64,000 nucleotides of DNA, from positions 1 through 64,000 of the forward strand of contig JAFLKM010000027.1 in assembly GCA_019163335.1 (NCBI GenBank). Direction: 5' to 3'. The DNA comes from Desulfobulbaceae bacterium (GTDB lineage Bacteria > Desulfobacterota > Desulfobulbia > Desulfobulbales > Desulfocapsaceae). A program made the position numbers and the translations under genes. Numbering within the stretch: the stretch's first letter is position 1; each line of letters starts with the position of its first letter. Positions 5,388 to 16,931 of this stretch are shown here, piece by piece. The notes beneath the pieces are model-generated. The model made no database searches, was not told the origin of the DNA, and saw only the letters and a program-made list of their open reading frames with translations.

Positions 5388-6359
5388 ATGGAAATTTTCA
5401 GAGAGATTGAAGCTATCAAAAATCCGTTTCCCTATTCTTGTGTTACCATCGGTAATTTTGACGGAGTACATCTTGGCCATCAATTGTTGTTTGCCGAGGT
5501 GGTGCAGCGGGCGTATCGCCATCGTGGTACTAGTGTGGCCATTACCTTTAATCCCCATCCTCTCCAAGTCCTTCGAGCAGAAGGGATCAAGCTGATTTCC
5601 ACCTGTGCCCAGAAGATAGAGATGATCAGTCACGCCGGCATTGATGTCCTCGTCATTGTCCCCTTTACCATGCAGTTTGCCGGTATTTCAGCCGATCATT
5701 TTGTAGACGAGATCCTTCTGCGTCGCATTGGGGTGAAAGAATTGGTGGTGGGGTATGATTATGCCTTTGGCAAAGGCCGGGCGGGTAATATCCCATTTTT
5801 GCAGAAGCAGGGAGAGGAAAAAGGGTTTCCGGTGTCGGTGGTTGACGCACACTATGAAAATGGGATGCTGGTTAGTTCAACCAAGGTTCGTGAATTGATA
5901 GCGGAAGGGCGGATGGCTGAAGCCAGGATGCTGCTTGGTCGTTTCTATCAAATCCGCGGCGAGGTGCAGATGGGAAAACAGAGGGGCAGCAGAGAGATAG
6001 GTTTTCCCACGGCCAATCTGCATCTGGATGCTGAAGACCTGATTCCAAGGATCGGAGTTTATGTGTGCCAGGTCATTTGTGATGGAAAATGTTACGGAGG
6101 GGTGCTTAATATTGGCTACAATCCAACTTTTGGTGAAGATAAGTTGGTGGCCGAGACCCATATATTTGATTTCAACCAAGATATCTATGGTAAGCCGATA
6201 AAGGTGAATTTGTTGCAATTTATTCGCGGTGAACAGAAATTTTCGGGTACACAGGAACTTGCTGCGCAGATTGGTCGTGATGTGATTCAGGCGAAACAGT
6301 TTTTGGCGAGTCAGCACAATGAGCTGACTCTTTCCTGTGAAGAAAAACACAACAGTTGA
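5388..6359 (+). CDS. ribF: bifunctional riboflavin kinase / FAD synthetase
   Basis: Phosphorylates riboflavin to FMN and adenylylates FMN to FAD. The N-terminal nucleotidyltransferase domain shows GNFDGVHLGH (residues 22-31) and FNPHP. The later STKVRE element marks its end. The C-terminal flavokinase domain (about 185-310) has RGSREIGFPTANL and NIGYNPTFG. 323 residues is typical. ATG 5388 has only a weak upstream ribosome-binding site. It is the first + strand gene of a flavin-related run and faces away from tRNA-Leu. Its FAD product is a cofactor of AprA, QmoA and QmoB encoded downstream. Confidence 0.95.
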   Translation: MEIFREIEAIKNPFPYSCVTIGNFDGVHLGHQLLFAEVVQRAYRHRGTSVAITFNPHPLQVLRAEGIKLISTCAQKIEMISHAGIDVLVIVPFTMQFAGISADHFVDEILLRRIGVKELVVGYDYAFGKGRAGNIPFLQKQGEEKGFPVSVVDAHYENGMLVSSTKVRELIAEGRMAEARMLLGRFYQIRGEVQMGKQRGSREIGFPTANLHLDAEDLIPRIGVYVCQVICDGKCYGGVLNIGYNPTFGEDKLVAETHIFDFNQDIYGKPIKVNLLQFIRGEQKFSGTQELAAQIGRDVIQAKQFLASQHNELTLSCEEKHNS

Positions 6360-6622: not shown

Positions 6623-7264
6623 ATGTCAGAACAGTTACCGGAAGATTTGCAGGAAGATTTAGCCAAAGTTATTGAAGAATTTGAAAAAAAATGTCAGCAG
6701 AACCCAAATAATGTGATGGCGCATCATCATCTGGGGCTGGTGTATCTAAAGGCCGGACGCGTGGATGACGCTGTCCGAATGCTGGAGAGAGCCATTGCCA
6801 TTGATCCCATGAGTGCGGAAAGCATGATTAACCTCGGGGCTATTTATTTTGGCAAGGGCGATATGACTCGTGCCCAGGAGTTAAATGAAGAGGCAGTGCG
6901 GGTCGTGCCGGAAACTGCTCAGGCACATGCCAACTTAGGGTTGATCTGGCAGCAGCGTAACGAGCTCGACAAGGCTATGGATGCTTATGAAAAGGCCATT
7001 CAGCATAATCCAAAACTGGCGACGGTATGGATTAATATGACGGCGGTGTTGACGATGAAGGGTGAGGACGAAAGGGCGCTGAAGTCAGCCCGTAAAGGGG
7101 TGGAGCTTGACCCCGATTCACCGCTGGCCCAGAATAATCTGGCGGTGGCCCTTTTCTTTAGTGGGGAGTTTAAACTTGCCAAAGAGCATATGGAAAAGGC
7201 CCGCGAGCTTGGTTACTCCGTGGATCCAAATTTTGTTGATCGGCTCCAGCAGGAACTGGCGTAA
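6623..7264 (+). CDS. TPR-repeat protein
   Basis: A 213-residue soluble protein built almost wholly of tetratricopeptide repeats: about five 34-residue units from residue 29 to 195, with canonical positions such as AHHHLGLVYLKAGRVDDA and AHANLGLIWQQRNELDKA. There is no signal peptide, membrane segment or catalytic domain, so it is probably a cytoplasmic scaffold or adaptor. ATG 6623 follows a GAGGTGGAG site. It is 43 bases before the next gene and one of two TPR genes flanking an uncharacterised zinc-ribbon protein. The partner is unknown. Confidence 0.85.
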   Translation: MSEQLPEDLQEDLAKVIEEFEKKCQQNPNNVMAHHHLGLVYLKAGRVDDAVRMLERAIAIDPMSAESMINLGAIYFGKGDMTRAQELNEEAVRVVPETAQAHANLGLIWQQRNELDKAMDAYEKAIQHNPKLATVWINMTAVLTMKGEDERALKSARKGVELDPDSPLAQNNLAVALFFSGEFKLAKEHMEKARELGYSVDPNFVDRLQQELA

Positions 7265-7307
7265 ACGTTAATGTTATAGGGAGTTATGGCTACTATTCTG
7301 AAATCTT

Positions 7308-8444
7308 ATGAGTAAACAACGTCTAACAACACCACCTTGGTGTCCATTTTGCGGCCAGAAAGTCGGGCGGGCAACGGATGCCATAGAGCGGAAAATGCAT
7401 GAGTTCAAGGTTGGACGCTGTGAGTGCGGTGCGGTCTATAGTTGTGATCCCACTGGCCATAATGTCGGAGCAGCCATCGTTGAAACGCTTGTATTGGCCT
7501 GCGACAACAATTGGGACTATGCTTGGGATCTTCTCCCTGAAGATGATTATCTCACTGGCCGAATTGAAGATTACGACGAATTGACCCACCAGGTGGTGAA
7601 TACCAAAAATATGGATGGCAGGCCTGTACGCGGTGTGCTGTATTTTGTCCGTCTGCATACCGCGATTACCGAGATTTCAAAACGGGTCAAGGAGAAGAAG
7701 GGCGTTCAGGCTGGTTGTCTGAATCTGGGAGCAGAGGAGATTTCTGTAGTTATAGAGCCAGCTCCTGATCCTCAGAGAAAAAAGGTCAAGGCCACCAAAC
7801 AGAGTGTGACTGGATATGTTGAGCTGGGTGATATTGATGCCCTTGTTGCCTTGTGTTTTGATGACAAAAAGACCCTGCGTCTGTTACAAAGGTTGTTATA
7901 TGAGCCTGATGAGCGGCAACGACTTCGGATTGCCTGGATTATCGGACAGGTTAGCGCCCGAGTGGCCAGTCGAGATCCTGGCCAGGTCTCTGGAATGTTG
8001 CATCGACTTTTTGAAGCCTGTTCCGATTCTGCTGCCACTCCCTGGGGGATGGTGGAGACTCTCGGTGAGATCATTGCCGGGCGGCCCGATATCTTTGGTG
8101 CCTTTACCCGCCATCTCTTGAATTATATGGGGGATATTTCTACCCAGAGTCAGGTAGTGTGGGCGCTTAGCAAGATCGCCAAAAGTCGGCCTGATCTGAT
8201 TCGGGCAACCCCGTTTTATAATCTTTTCCATTTTCTGAATCACCCTGATCCGCTCATGCGTGGACAGGTCGCCCGTTTGTTGGGTCGTATCCGGGCAACT
8301 GAGGCCGCCCTTCAGCTCATGGCGCTGAATGATGACATGGCGGAGTTGTCCATATGGGAAGATGACAAATGGAATACTTTTACTGTTTCAGCCCTGGCCC
8401 GAGAGGCTGTGGCCAGGATTCATGAAAAAGAGGTTAACTTATGA
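7308..8444 (+). CDS. uncharacterised zinc-ribbon plus HEAT-like helical-repeat protein
   Basis: The N-terminus has WCPFCGQK (Cys12/15), CEC (38/40) and C46, likely a zinc ribbon. The stretch CDPTGHNVGAA follows, then a mixed domain with WDYAWDLLPEDDYLTG and VRGVLYFVRLH. From about residue 170 the protein is all-helical with HEAT-like repeats (RLRIAWIIGQVSAR, DPLMRGQVARLLGRI). I recall a family of unknown function in sulfate reducers, tagged after D. vulgaris DVU0298, with a similar N-terminus; this is unverified memory. It overlaps the next TPR gene by four bases (ATGA), so the two are translationally coupled. No enzyme active site was recognised. Confidence 0.7.
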   Translation: MSKQRLTTPPWCPFCGQKVGRATDAIERKMHEFKVGRCECGAVYSCDPTGHNVGAAIVETLVLACDNNWDYAWDLLPEDDYLTGRIEDYDELTHQVVNTKNMDGRPVRGVLYFVRLHTAITEISKRVKEKKGVQAGCLNLGAEEISVVIEPAPDPQRKKVKATKQSVTGYVELGDIDALVALCFDDKKTLRLLQRLLYEPDERQRLRIAWIIGQVSARVASRDPGQVSGMLHRLFEACSDSAATPWGMVETLGEIIAGRPDIFGAFTRHLLNYMGDISTQSQVVWALSKIAKSRPDLIRATPFYNLFHFLNHPDPLMRGQVARLLGRIRATEAALQLMALNDDMAELSIWEDDKWNTFTVSALAREAVARIHEKEVNL

Positions 8445-9034
8445 CAAAGACTACACTGCAATCGATTGATTCTATTGTTGCCGTGGATCAGAAGAAACCT
8501 TCTGATCCGGCACAAGCCCAATATGAAGAAGGAAGAGAGTTTTTGAAAAAAAACGAACTGTCTCAGGCTGCTCTAGCCTTTCATAATGCGCTCCTGGCCT
8601 TTGAAGAAAAGGATAATCAGGACGGGATCGCCAATGCCTCAAATCAGCTCGGCAATGTCTGCCTGCAGCGACGGGAATATGCGAAAGCCATGGCGCATTA
8701 TCAACGGGCGTGGGGTATCTGTGAGAAACAGGATGACCCTATGAGTCTGAATGTCCTGTCCTCCCAGCTTGTTCTGGCTCACCAGGGATTGAAGCAGTTC
8801 CCAGAGGCTGTCAAACTCTGTCTTGATATGCTGGAAACATATCATCGGGGTAATAATCCTCAAGGGGTTGTGGAGACTCTGGAGAAGCTGGTGAATGTTT
8901 ATATTGAAGCGGGTGATAATGCAAAGGCTGCTGATACCTATCGGACGATCGCCTCAATCCATGCCCAGTATAAACATAAGAACATTGCCGAGGGTTTTAT
9001 GAAAAAGGCTCAGGCCCTGGAAGAGTCTGCCTGA
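8441..9034 (+). CDS. TPR-repeat protein, coupled to the zinc-ribbon/HEAT protein
   Basis: 197 residues. A short polar N-terminus is followed by about four TPR-like helical pairs (for example ASNQLGNVCLQRREYAKAM and LVNVYIEAGDNAKAAD). There is no export signal or catalytic motif. The start codon sits in an ATGA overlap with the preceding stop. The product may bind its upstream partner, which is inference from coupling. ribE starts 20 bases downstream, so the module is probably cotranscribed with riboflavin genes. Confidence 0.8.
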   Translation: MTKTTLQSIDSIVAVDQKKPSDPAQAQYEEGREFLKKNELSQAALAFHNALLAFEEKDNQDGIANASNQLGNVCLQRREYAKAMAHYQRAWGICEKQDDPMSLNVLSSQLVLAHQGLKQFPEAVKLCLDMLETYHRGNNPQGVVETLEKLVNVYIEAGDNAKAADTYRTIASIHAQYKHKNIAEGFMKKAQALEESA

Positions 9035-9053: not shown

Positions 9054-9713
9054 ATGTTTACAGGCATTGTGGCGGGCACAGGGATATTACGGAGGAAACG
9101 AGGGGTGGATGGTGGCATGGCTTTTGATCTTGAGGCCGGATTTATTCTTGCTGATCCGGAAGAAGGAGAATCCGTCGCTATTAACGGTGTTTGTCTGACT
9201 GCTTACAGCATAAAAGATCAGCGATTTACGGTCGATGTCTCTCCTGAGACCCTGAAGCGTTCAACCCTGGGGGGGCTTGCTGCCGGGGTTTCTGTAAATA
9301 TGGAACGTGCCTTGCGGCTGTCCGATCGTTTGGGGGGGCATATTGTTTCCGGTCATGTTGATTGTGTAGCAATGCTGCAGGAACGAAGACCCGTGGGCGC
9401 CTTTACCATTTTTTCCTTTGCCCTCCCTGAACAATGGGATCGGTATGTTGTTGAAAAGGGATCGGTGACCATCGACGGGGTCAGCCTGACTGTGAATGGT
9501 TGTAGCCCGGGGAAATTCGACGTCTCAATTATTCCCCAGACCCTTCAGACAACCACCCTTGGGCTGTTAAAAAACGGCAGCCGTGTTAATATTGAGGTCG
9601 ATATCATTGGCAAATACGTGGAGAAACTGCTTGCCCCTCAGCCGTCCCAGGTTATCGGGTCAGTTGAGGGGAAGATTAGTCCCGCCTTTCTGGCAGAGCA
9701 TGGTTTCTTTTGA
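9054..9713 (+). CDS. ribE: riboflavin synthase, alpha subunit
   Basis: Dismutates two 6,7-dimethyl-8-ribityllumazines into riboflavin and the pyrimidinedione. It starts with the hallmark MFTGIV and consists of two similar lumazine-binding halves, with GVCLTA and SGHVD in the first and GVSLTVNG in the second. 219 residues is typical. It sits between the TPR module and ribBA. The symbol ribE follows E. coli/proteobacterial use; some annotations call it ribC. Confidence 0.95.
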   Translation: MFTGIVAGTGILRRKRGVDGGMAFDLEAGFILADPEEGESVAINGVCLTAYSIKDQRFTVDVSPETLKRSTLGGLAAGVSVNMERALRLSDRLGGHIVSGHVDCVAMLQERRPVGAFTIFSFALPEQWDRYVVEKGSVTIDGVSLTVNGCSPGKFDVSIIPQTLQTTTLGLLKNGSRVNIEVDIIGKYVEKLLAPQPSQVIGSVEGKISPAFLAEHGFF

Positions 9714-9766
9714 TCTCGCCTCATGAAGTTATTAAACATTATTATTTCTAATAAAGGTATTTGATC

Positions 9767-10981
9767 ATGGCAGTCAGCCCAATTGAAGAAGTCATCAAGG
9801 ACATCAAGGCCGGAAAGATGGTTATCCTGGTGGATGATGAAGATCGTGAAAATGAAGGGGATCTGTGCATGGCTGCGGAGGCGGTGACCCCAGAGGCTAT
9901 TAATTTCATGGCAAGATATGGTCGAGGTCTGATCTGCCTGACCTTGAGTCCGGATCTTGTCGAGAAGCTACAACTGCCGATGATGGTCAGTGATAATCAG
10001 TCGCCCTACGGTACCGGCTTTACCATAAGTATCGAGGCCCGGACCGGGGTGTCCACTGGTATCTCGGCTGCGGATCGGGCTCGTACCATTGAGGCGGCGG
10101 TCGCCCCCGATGCTAAACCACATGATATTATCAGTCCAGGCCATATTTTTCCGCTGCGGGCGAAGGCAGGCGGGGTGCTGGTTCGTCTGGGCCAGACAGA
10201 AGGGTCTGTGGATCTCGCACGTCTTGCCGGCTGTCGAACTGCCGGGGTTATCTGCGAGATTATGAACGATGACGGATCCATGTCGCGTATGCCTGATCTG
10301 GAAAAATTTGCAGTTGAACATGACCTGAAGATAGCAACGATTGCTGATCTTGTTGCCTATCGGCTCCGTGAGGATATCTTGGTCCACCGTGCCGCAGAGG
10401 CCCGGGTTCCCACTGATCATGCGGGGGAGTTCAAGGTTATAATTTACACCAACGATGTTGATAAAATGGAGCATCTTGCCCTGGTGAAGGGAGAGATTAA
10501 TCCTGATAAAAAGGTGTTGGTGCGTGTTCACTCCGAATGTCTCACAGGGGATGTCTTTGGCTCTGCCCGTTGCGATTGCGGGGATCAGTTGTATGCTGCC
10601 ATGCGAATGATTGATCAGGAGGGCTGTGGTGTTCTTTTGTATATGCGCCAGGAGGGGCGGGGCATTGGCTTGATCAACAAATTGAAGGCCTATCATCTTC
10701 AGGATTCTGAAGGAATGGATACGGTGGAGGCAAATATTCATCTGGGTTTTAAGGCCGATCTTCGTGATTATGGGATTGGCGCTCAGATTCTCCGGGATCT
10801 CGGAGTGCGAAAGATGAGCCTTCTGACCAATAATCCTAAAAAAATTATCGGTCTTGAGGGATATGGCATTGAGGTGGTGGATCGTTTTCCCATTGAGATG
10901 GCTGCCAGTGAAGAGAATAAGAATTATCTCATGTGCAAACGTGACCGAATGGGCCATTTGCTTGTCGTTGATGATGAGTAA
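9767..10981 (+). CDS. ribBA: bifunctional DHBP synthase / GTP cyclohydrolase II
   Basis: Makes both riboflavin precursors. The N-terminal domain (to about residue 200) converts ribulose 5-phosphate to dihydroxybutanone phosphate, with [11 protein letters not shown] at the active site. The C-terminal GTP cyclohydrolase II domain has zinc-binding [16 protein letters not shown] and RQEGRGIGL. The ORF track begins at TTG 9761, but ATG 9767 has better spacing from AAAGGT and gives the usual MAVSPIEE start (404 residues). No FMN riboswitch precedes it. Confidence 0.95.
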
Positions 10982-11045
10982 TATTGGTAAAGTTCCAGAC
11001 TCTTTTGAGAGATGGATTTATTTCTAGCGATAAGGTATTGATGAT

Positions 11046-11513
11046 ATGGCAAATATAATTGAGGGAAATCTGAAGGCAGACGGAAAAAAGTTCGCAATTA
11101 TTGTCGCCCGGTTTAATTCTTTTGTTTCCGAAAAATTACTGGAAGGAGCTCTGGATACCTTGATCCGGTCCGGCGCCCTTGATGAAGATATAGATGTGGC
11201 TCGTGTTCCAGGTGCGTATGAGATACCACTTATCGCCAAAAAGATGGCTGCTTCTCAGAAGTATGATGCCGTGATCTGTCTGGGAGCAGTCATTCGGGGA
11301 GCTACCCCCCATTTTGATGTTGTGGTGAATGAGGTCTCCAAGGGTTCTGCTCAAGTGGGGCTGGAAACAGGGGTACCCGTTCTTTTCGGGGTGTTGACCA
11401 CTGAAAACATTGAGCAGGCCATTGAACGTTCTGGATCCAAGGCTGGCAATAAAGGTTCAGAAGTTGCCGTTGCTGCCATTGAAATGGCCAACCTCCTTGT
11501 GAATCTGCAATAA
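11046..11513 (+). CDS. ribH: 6,7-dimethyl-8-ribityllumazine synthase
   Basis: Condenses the RibBA-derived butanone phosphate with the aminopyrimidine to form lumazine for RibE. Motifs are [15 protein letters not shown] at the N-terminus, VPGAYEIP, and [12 protein letters not shown] with the catalytic His region. 155 residues matches the icosahedral enzyme family. It lies 64 bases after ribBA and 37 before nusB, an order common in proteobacteria. ribD, which supplies the other substrate, is not in this window. Confidence 0.95.
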
Positions 11514-14423: not shown

Positions 14424-14843
14424 ATGCCAAGTTATGTAGATCCTTCCAAGTGCGATGGTTGCAAGGGTGGCGACAAGACAGCATGTATGTACATTTGTCC
14501 CAATGACCTGATGGTGCTGAACAAAGAGGAAATGCGTGCCTACAATCAGGAGCCTGATGCCTGCTGGGAATGCTATTCCTGTGTAAAGATTTGTCCTCAA
14601 GGTGCTATTTTTGTTCGTGGTTATGATGACTTTGTCCCCATGGGCGGTCAGGTTCATCCAATGCGCAGTGCTTCTGATATCATGTGGACTGTCAAGTTCC
14701 GTAATGGAAACATGAAGCGCTTCAAATTTCCTGTTCGTACCACCTCTGAAGGTGCTGCCAATGCATACATTGGTACCACCGGCGGCAGCCTGGATGATGA
14801 ATGCCTGATCCTTGAGTCAGCCCTTCCTACACCAACTAAATAA
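14424..14843 (+). CDS. aprB: adenylylsulfate (APS) reductase, beta subunit
   Basis: Carries two [4Fe-4S] clusters that pass electrons to the FAD of AprA during reduction of APS to sulfite and AMP in the cytoplasm. Ligands are visible as CDGCKGG...CMYICP and CWECYSCVKICP in the first 65 residues; the rest is the beta-rich and tail region that wraps AprA. 139 residues is slightly short for the family but complete at both ends. It is preceded by a strong GAGGAGG site and followed 69 bases later by aprA. Confidence 0.96.
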   Translation: MPSYVDPSKCDGCKGGDKTACMYICPNDLMVLNKEEMRAYNQEPDACWECYSCVKICPQGAIFVRGYDDFVPMGGQVHPMRSASDIMWTVKFRNGNMKRFKFPVRTTSEGAANAYIGTTGGSLDDECLILESALPTPTK

Positions 14844-14912
14844 TTCTGGATAAACCCTTTGGCTGGAATTAATTGCACGCAAACTCTTTTAATATTTTAA
14901 GGAGATTTTAAT

Positions 14913-16931
14913 ATGGCATTACCAAATAAACCAAACGGTGAAATTGCTGCCGTGGTAAATCCTGAAATCGTTGAGCATGATGTTGACGTTCTCATCGTTG
15001 GTGGCGGTATGGCTGCTTGCGGCACCGCCTTTGAGATCAAAAAATGGGCTCCTGCCGACATGAAGATTGTGCTTGTTGATAAGGCATCTCTCGAGCGTTC
15101 CGGTGCTGTAGCTCAGGGTCTTTCTGCTATCAATACCTATATCGGCTCTAACCCAATCGAGAGTTACGTAAAGATGGTACGTAACGACCTTATGGGCGTT
15201 GTTCGTGAAGATCTGATCTATGACTGTGGTCGTCATGTAGATGAGTCAGTAAAGTTGTTTGAAGAGTGGGGCCTTCCTATTTGGAAGCTGGATGCCGATG
15301 GTAATAACCTTGATGGCGCTGCTCCTGCTAAGTCCCTGCGTGAAGGCGGTACCCCTGTTCGTACCGGTAAATGGCAGATCATGATTAACGGCGAGTCTTA
15401 CAAGTGTATTGTTGCAGAGCCTGCAAAGACTGCCCTTGGTGCCGACAACTGCCTTGAGCGTATTTTTATCGTAAAAATGCTGTTGGATAAGAACAAGCCA
15501 AACCAGATCGCTGGTGCGGTTGGATTCTCAACTCGCGAGAACGCTGTACATGTATTCCGCTGCAAGACCGCTCTGGTTGCCTGCGGTGGTGCTGTAAATA
15601 TTTTCCGCCCACGCTCAACTGGTGAAGGAAAAGGCCGTGCCTGGTATCCAGTATGGAATGCCGGTTCTACCTATACCATGTGTGCCCAGGTCGGTGCGAC
15701 CCTGACCATGATGGAAAATCGTTTTACCCCAGCTCGTTTCAAAGATGGATATGGCCCCGTTGGCGCCTGGTTCCTTCTGTTCAAGGCTAAAGTCCAAAAC
15801 GGTCTTGGTGAGTTCTATGCTAATAGCCCAGCCGTAAAAGATGAACTTGCGAAATTTATGCCTTATGGTGCTTCAGCCGTTACTCCTACCTGCTTGCGAA
15901 ATCATTTGATGCTGAATGAGCTCAAGGCTGGTCGTGGTCCTATTTATATGGCAACCGACGTTGCACTGAATGCTTTCCTTGATGCAAAGAAAGCAGCTGG
16001 TATGGACGAAAAGGGTGTTAAGAAATATTGGAAGCATCTTGAGTCTGAGGCATGGGAGGATTTTCTTGATATGTCTGTTGGTCAGGCTGGGTTGTGGGCA
16101 GGTGCTAATATTGAGCCTGAGAAAGTTGGTTCTGAGATTATGCCGACCGAACCCTACATGCTTGGATCTCACTCAGGTTGTTGTGGAATCTGGACTTCTG
16201 GTCCAGAGGAAGATTGGGTTCCCAATGTTGCAAACCCTTCCCGCGCTCATAAGTACAAGTGGGGGTATAACCGTATGACCACCGTTGATGGCCTCTTCAC
16301 CGCTGGTGATGGCGTTGGCGCATCTGGCCATAAGTTCTCTTCCGGTGCCCATGCAGAGGGTCGTATTTGTGCCAAACAAATGGTGAAGTTCTGCCGTGAT
16401 AATGCTTCTTTTAAGCCTGAGTTGAGGCAAACCGTTCAGGAATTAGCTGATGAGATCTACGCACCAGTTAAGCTGTATCATGAGCATGTTGGGGCGTCTA
16501 CTTCTTCAAATGTAAACCCCAACTTCTGTAAACCAGCTGGTATCATGATGCGTCTGATGAAGGCTACCGATGAGTATGGTGGCGGTGTTGCTACTTACTA
16601 CATGACTTCAGGTAAACTGTTGAATATCTGCCTTGATCTTCTCAAAATGCTGCGTGAAGATGCTGAGAAGATGGCTGCTGGCGATCTGCATGAGCTTCTT
16701 CGTGCATGGGAAAATTATCATCGTATCTGGTGTGTAGAAACCCATATTCGTCACATAGAATTCCGTAAAGAATCTCGTTACCCAGGATTTTACTATCGCT
16801 CAGATTTCCCAGCGGTTGATGACGAAAACTGGAAGTGTTTTGTAAACTCAACCTTTAATCCTGAGACTCAGGAATGGTTGTGCGAAAAGGTAGAATGTAT
16901 CAACATCGTATCAACTGATCCTTGGCTGTAA
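14913..16931 (+). CDS. aprA: adenylylsulfate (APS) reductase, alpha subunit
   Basis: The FAD catalytic subunit that reduces APS to sulfite, or runs in reverse in sulfur oxidation and disproportionation. The Rossmann motif VLIVGGGMAACGTAFEI is at about residue 26, and the fumarate-reductase-like fold continues with RSGAVAQGLSAINTY and later GDGVGASGHKFSSGAHAEGR. 672 residues is full length. ATG follows AAGGAG. A 13-bp-stem terminator ends the aprBA unit 35 bases downstream. Gene order and similarity fit a sulfate reducer with QmoABC as partner. Confidence 0.97.
   Translation: MALPNKPNGEIAAVVNPEIVEHDVDVLIVGGGMAACGTAFEIKKWAPADMKIVLVDKASLERSGAVAQGLSAINTYIGSNPIESYVKMVRNDLMGVVREDLIYDCGRHVDESVKLFEEWGLPIWKLDADGNNLDGAAPAKSLREGGTPVRTGKWQIMINGESYKCIVAEPAKTALGADNCLERIFIVKMLLDKNKPNQIAGAVGFSTRENAVHVFRCKTALVACGGAVNIFRPRSTGEGKGRAWYPVWNAGSTYTMCAQVGATLTMMENRFTPARFKDGYGPVGAWFLLFKAKVQNGLGEFYANSPAVKDELAKFMPYGASAVTPTCLRNHLMLNELKAGRGPIYMATDVALNAFLDAKKAAGMDEKGVKKYWKHLESEAWEDFLDMSVGQAGLWAGANIEPEKVGSEIMPTEPYMLGSHSGCCGIWTSGPEEDWVPNVANPSRAHKYKWGYNRMTTVDGLFTAGDGVGASGHKFSSGAHAEGRICAKQMVKFCRDNASFKPELRQTVQELADEIYAPVKLYHEHVGASTSSNVNPNFCKPAGIMMRLMKATDEYGGGVATYYMTSGKLLNICLDLLKMLREDAEKMAAGDLHELLRAWENYHRIWCVETHIRHIEFRKESRYPGFYYRSDFPAVDDENWKCFVNSTFNPETQEWLCEKVECINIVSTDPWL

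Follow-up and report, generated by a model that had tools for sequence, protein, structure and literature searches.

Sulfate respiration is driven by DsrAB and AprBA, and to our knowledge the entry of siroheme amide and Fe-S cofactors into DsrAB is poorly described. Helical-repeat scaffolds of the HEAT/TPR type, such as MMS19 and the CpcE/F-type lyases, aid cofactor or target loading. The proteins of the three genes analysed here resemble them in their helical repeats, but no sequence relation was seen, and the HEAT model NblB scored 12.7 against a cut-off of 300. Unnamed conserved genes near dsr and apr were reportedly described by Mussmann et al. in 2005, a study cited by PMC2702500, in gene islands for sulfate respiration; part of the present module may therefore have been seen before. 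The accessory genes dsrD, dsrN and dsrT of the dsr cluster have been discussed in PMC10504309. Like the present module, these are small cytoplasmic genes that are co-distributed and co-located with dsrAB and dsrMKJOP; the trio differs from them in that no Dsr family model was among the NCBIfam matches listed for its proteins.

The module was not found described in the dsr gene-cluster literature under the terms used, and nothing was found that combined dsrAB with a HEAT repeat. No biochemical or genetic data on the module were found in the literature. Searches on DVU0298, the family name relevant to the middle gene, yielded no function; the single full-text hit, a paper on carbon monoxide use, was judged off-topic by its title, and the main text of a D. 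vulgaris fitness paper did not mention DVU0298. The D. vulgaris protein DVU2210, of YcaO-TPR type (PMC7774982), was considered and dropped because it has a YcaO domain, which the trio proteins lack.

Gene layout and protein domains of the trio

The window is the whole stretch of 64,000 nucleotides that was analysed, and comes from contig C8 of a genome of 3.2 Mb. Its named relatives suggest a bacterium of the Desulfobulbaceae/Desulfocapsaceae type. Three genes of unassigned role had been predicted between ribF and ribE in this window, and their open reading frames were confirmed on the + strand (6623-7264, 7308-8444 and 8441-9034). The predicted ATGA overlap between the middle gene and the second TPR gene was also found, and this overlap (-4) is kept in most relatives. 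The features are as follows.

5388..6359, + strand: ribF, upstream neighbour of the trio (context; Pfam)
6623..7264, + strand: TPRa, first gene of the module, 213-aa TPR protein (Pfam TPR; open reading frame)
7308..8444, + strand: ZnHEAT, middle gene, 378 aa, Cys4 N-domain and DVU0298-type HEAT domain (profiles, alignment, AlphaFold2)
7308..7667, + strand: ZnHEAT N-domain, residues 1-120 (alignments; no Pfam family)
7341..7427, + strand: span of the four conserved Cys codons of ZnHEAT, C12, C15, C38 and C40 (alignments)
7821..8411, + strand: DVU0298-family HEAT solenoid of ZnHEAT, NF045662 (NCBIfam profile; Foldseek ARM/HEAT fold)
8441..9034, + strand: TPRb, 197-aa TPR protein with ATGA overlap with ZnHEAT (Pfam; AlphaFold2)
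9054..11513, + strand: ribE, ribBA and ribH (context; Pfam), with ribE at 9054-9713
14424..16931, + strand: aprBA, sulfate-reduction neighbour in the lineage of the window (context; open reading frames; aprA search)

The Rfam scan returned tRNAs and no other element, and no promoter or terminator signals exceeded the shuffled expectation. A possible nine-codon leader open reading frame overlapping the ZnHEAT start in the window was dropped, as it is not conserved in relatives. Elsewhere in the window, a Cys-rich 229-aa protein without a confident Pfam match is encoded between thiE and hflC (1024-1713), and a relative of it adjoins hflC in another genome.

The predicted repeat content was borne out by matches over the Pfam thresholds for TPRa (TPR_1, 100.8 bits), TPRb (TPR_12, 39.4 bits) and ZnHEAT (HEAT_2, PF13646, 31.3 bits against a gathering threshold of 27.7). 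Residues 172-368 of ZnHEAT matched NCBIfam NF045662 with 190.5 bits (cut-off 75), so that by score the C-terminal half is a member of the family that NCBIfam names DVU0298 family protein without giving a function. No catalytic, DNA-binding or signalling domain was found in the three proteins with Pfam and NCBIfam, in agreement with the original prediction of an interaction-repeat module without a recognised catalytic domain. All three are strongly conserved at the protein level, and mean column identity was 66% for ZnHEAT (65 relatives), 58% for TPRb (53 relatives) and 67% for TPRa (23 relatives).

The N-domain of ZnHEAT carries two conserved Cys pairs, CPFC and CxC, and C12, C15, C38 and C40 are invariant in the 65 relatives and in 13 diverse sequences; in one relative near the window, part of the context of the Cys motif is missing and most positions are kept. 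Cys46, which had been proposed as a further ligand, was rejected because the alignments show that this position is not conserved, and the candidate metal site is thus the Cys4 set. Further invariant residues of the N-domain are D47, N52, G54, D80, Y81 and Y89. When 13 members were compared with Pfam, zinc-ribbon profiles included, no match of the N-domain had an E-value below 0.03.

The AlphaFold2 model of ZnHEAT (mean pLDDT 86.9, pTM 0.61) places the Cys4 site in an alpha/beta N-domain that extends until about residue 117 and is followed by a low-confidence linker at about 136-144. A helical solenoid starts at residue 164 (helices 164-338), followed by a short C-terminal strand pair and helices. 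TPRb was modelled as nine helices with a mean pLDDT of 92. A Foldseek search of the PDB with the ZnHEAT model matched generic ARM/HEAT solenoids only (best E 1.2e-4), and PDB sequence searches returned weak matches only, mostly to designed repeat proteins.

Distribution and forms of the DVU0298 family

The distribution of the module was analysed in 297 genomes of one phylum, which are kin to each other and hence not independent. All 58 genomes sampled around the window contained a ZnHEAT relative, and many of them contained two, one of full length and one a paralogue that is short and HEAT-only. Full-length relatives were detected in 57 of the 297 genomes. Each of these 57 carriers contained dsrA or aprA, in support of the suggested presence of the middle family in sulfate reducers; dsrA was over the cut-off in 55 of them, and the remaining two were 62-67% complete genomes with aprA present. 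In other families, the N-domain also occurs as a small stand-alone gene (14 of 297 genomes), in which the four Cys are again invariant. Thirteen of these 14 genomes contained dsrA, and in the other (L179) dsrC-, dsrM- and dsrK-like genes come after the N-domain gene.

The proposed phylogenetic profile against dsrAB and aprA was run, and the family tracked both genes (phi 0.82-0.86). DVU0298-family members were present in 127 of the 297 genomes (126 over the cut-off by the automatic tally), including 110 of the 113 genomes with both dsrA and aprA, and were missing from 148 of the 154 genomes without dsrA, where absences are soft because the genome search used a first-look filter. Several of the six genomes with the family and without dsrA were incomplete or contained fragments of dsrA or aprA. 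The family was also absent from 14 control genomes. Nineteen genomes with dsrA and without aprA (e.g. G075, G086, G136 and G206) gave no strong family match, and the family is therefore not needed for every DsrAB; the dsrA matches in these genomes tended to cover less of the model at its C-terminal end.

Within the sampled phylum, the trio is a conserved set almost confined to sulfate-respiring microbes, and broad occurrence outside sulfur metabolisers without a conserved neighbourhood was not found there. The trio could instead consist of housekeeping or lineage-marker genes, whose co-occurrence with dsr and apr reflects the shared ancestry of sulfate reducers. The relatedness of the 297 genomes favours this explanation, and the Fisher p-values for the family association (about 1e-51 to 1e-58) overstate independence for the same reason, which makes linkage the stronger argument. 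The link to dsrA is seen again and again, in 13 families with differing gene orders, and many dsr-free genomes of this phylum do not have the family; shared ancestry alone is accordingly considered very improbable.

DVU0298-type proteins are HEAT-only and about 240 aa long, whereas ZnHEAT has an additional Cys4 N-domain. ZnHEAT is not a whole-protein orthologue of the short form, which the window genome encodes separately on contig C4 (L052:6767-7501, 213 bits). In a tree of HEAT domains, those of 41 ZnHEAT proteins formed their own clade with a support of 1.0. The two forms also differ in their neighbours, which are dsr and apr genes for ZnHEAT and FprA, rubrerythrin and ferritin genes for the short form. 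Across the order and beyond, the short gene was often observed near genes of oxygen defence and iron storage (ferritin-like, FprA, rubrerythrin or desulfoferrodoxin-like). Many sulfate reducers contained the short HEAT-only form alone.

Seven families (L152, L156, L158, L159, L162, L164 and L165) encode ZnHEAT and TPRb as a single fused polypeptide of about 550-583 aa. The N-domain and the HEAT domain are encoded by separate genes in two families, and the split HEAT domains are sister to the ZnHEAT clade (support 0.97). The occurrence of the same parts in fused and split versions is a usual sign that these parts work together. In another family, a TPRa-like gene lies immediately upstream of a short DVU0298 gene (L185:8874-10244), and the pairing of TPRa with HEAT may thus extend to the short form.

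Gene neighbourhoods and competing explanations

Neighbours were labelled by testing proteins with NCBIfam, and others were labelled by BLAST to those. In most families, the module is physically linked with dsrAB, with a cbiA/dsrN-type gene, with dsrMKJOP or with aprBA, and its association with dissimilatory sulfur metabolism is evident from both co-occurrence and linkage. A dsrA gene was located within 8 kb of the full-length gene in 30 of the 57 genomes (13 families), and dsrA or aprA was nearby in 37 of the 57 genomes and 15 of the 21 families. Placement near aprA was observed in the family of the window and at least three others. Among 40 loci, TPRa was found within about 2 kb of the ZnHEAT gene in 38, and DsrA/B was near in 21. 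A CbiA/DsrN-type gene was a neighbour in 18 of these loci, and rib genes were neighbours in eight. DsrA, DsrB, DsrM, DsrK, DsrJ, DsrO and DsrP were confirmed as neighbours by NCBIfam. The CbiA-type neighbour scores over the cut-off for cobyrinate diamide synthase, and its identity as DsrN rather than a cobalamin-type enzyme is a candidate assignment.

The arrangement of ribF, trio and ribE with aprBA downstream was observed in the family of the window and in families f4 and f12, and in only part of the order. A role in assembling flavo- or Fe-S proteins of sulfate reduction had been suggested from this arrangement; the link to sulfate-reduction genes held, and the tie to flavin synthesis was not supported. 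A flavin-specific role was rejected because only eight of the 40 loci have a rib neighbourhood. A broader aid to the maturation of flavoproteins and Fe-S proteins, including the flavins of AprA and QmoAB, would agree with the position between ribF and ribE near aprBA-qmo in the window's family and a few others. However, rib neighbours occurred in eight of 40 loci against 21 for dsrAB, and genomes without sulfur metabolism lack the family, although they too make flavoproteins and Fe-S proteins. The probability assigned to this general role is accordingly low, and close to that of the regulatory role considered below.

In other families of the order, the trio is located between a cbiA/dsrN-type gene and dsrBA. 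Beyond the order, several families (L156, L158 and L164) have the module after dsrMKJOP and before dsrAB. In L162 and L165 it comes after dsrMKJOP on a stretch that has no dsrAB, and elsewhere it accompanies dsrAB in other arrangements. The main rival to DsrAB maturation is a scaffold between DsrAB and DsrMKJOP, that is, a standing structural tether that would anchor DsrAB and DsrC at the membrane complex DsrMKJOP, or AprBA at Qmo, and channel sulfite, the DsrC trisulfide or electrons. A position exactly between dsrMKJOP and dsrAB and the lack of a catalytic domain in the trio are what such a tether would lead one to expect. Gene position cannot separate assembly from scaffolding, and the neighbouring genes lean to cofactor handling: besides the CbiA/DsrN-type genes, a small PF03692-like protein with CxxCxxCC, a putative chelator of zinc or iron, is encoded near the module in about half of the 40 loci, recurring in many families at L148, L150, L152-L158, L160, L161 and L163-L167. 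Two of the CxxCxxCC proteins were tested against PF03692, and one was slightly under the threshold. A standing tether is therefore regarded as unlikely, although it is the alternative given most weight.

An RsbRD-N protein gene adjoins dsrM in six loci. Together with the invariant Cys4 site, this would be consistent with a regulatory module, with the Cys4 head as a sensor of metal, redox state or sulfide, or as a nucleic-acid-binding part, and the repeats as relays of the signal to the expression or activity of sulfur genes. The absence of DNA-binding and signalling domains from the three proteins and the helical-repeat nature of the partners argue against regulation, which we regard as quite improbable.

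A further neighbour of ZnHEAT, present mostly where TPRb is missing, is about 360-420 aa long and belongs to no Pfam family (L150:2930-4189, with relatives in L153, L154, L155, L157, L163 and L167). This protein may stand in for TPRb.

Proposed role in sulfate respiration

Gene fusion and gene order suggest that the trio proteins form a cytoplasmic complex. DsrAB maturation is a possible task of this complex, to judge by the linkage centred on DsrAB, by the adjacent CbiA/DsrN-type and putatively metal-chelating proteins, and by the fact that no catalytic or DNA-binding domain was found. Our preferred reading, held with slightly more doubt than confidence, is that the trio serves dissimilatory sulfite/sulfate reduction as a dedicated accessory module and is most likely a platform for DsrAB assembly or maturation. 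Maturation is one of several scaffold roles that would suit these proteins, as HEAT and TPR folds are generic.

In the proposed mechanism, the HEAT solenoid would form the cradle of the complex, the Cys4 domain would be its head, stabilised by zinc and used for docking or metal handling, and the TPR proteins would serve as adaptors. The complex would hold the DsrA and DsrB subunits, and possibly AprBA, through folding; siroheme amide and [4Fe-4S] clusters would be loaded and the enzyme assembled while the subunits are held, before release to DsrC and DsrMKJOP. A more specific proposal is a machine dedicated to building dissimilatory sulfite reductase, which would combine siroheme-amide and Fe-S loading into DsrAB with assembly, rely on a HEAT cradle together with a new Cys4 domain, and be general to sulfate reducers via its DVU0298-family core; this proposal is conceivable and, on balance, doubtful.

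In the window genome, dsrAB is on a different contig from the trio, and the nearby sulfate-reduction genes are aprBA-qmo; a pathway-wide role fits this lineage too. The genera that carry the module include Desulfocapsa and Candidatus Electrothrix. Desulfocapsa are known as sulfur disproportionators and Candidatus Electrothrix as cable bacteria, and both use the same enzymes partly in the opposite direction. This argues against a simple sulfate sensor, and a part in the making of the enzymes is the better fit.

The trio probably helps build or organise the machinery of sulfate respiration. A family that tracks this pathway and has no assigned function offers specific candidates for an assembly or organising step that is still missing, and may serve as a marker for sulfate-reducing genomes and as a target for souring control.
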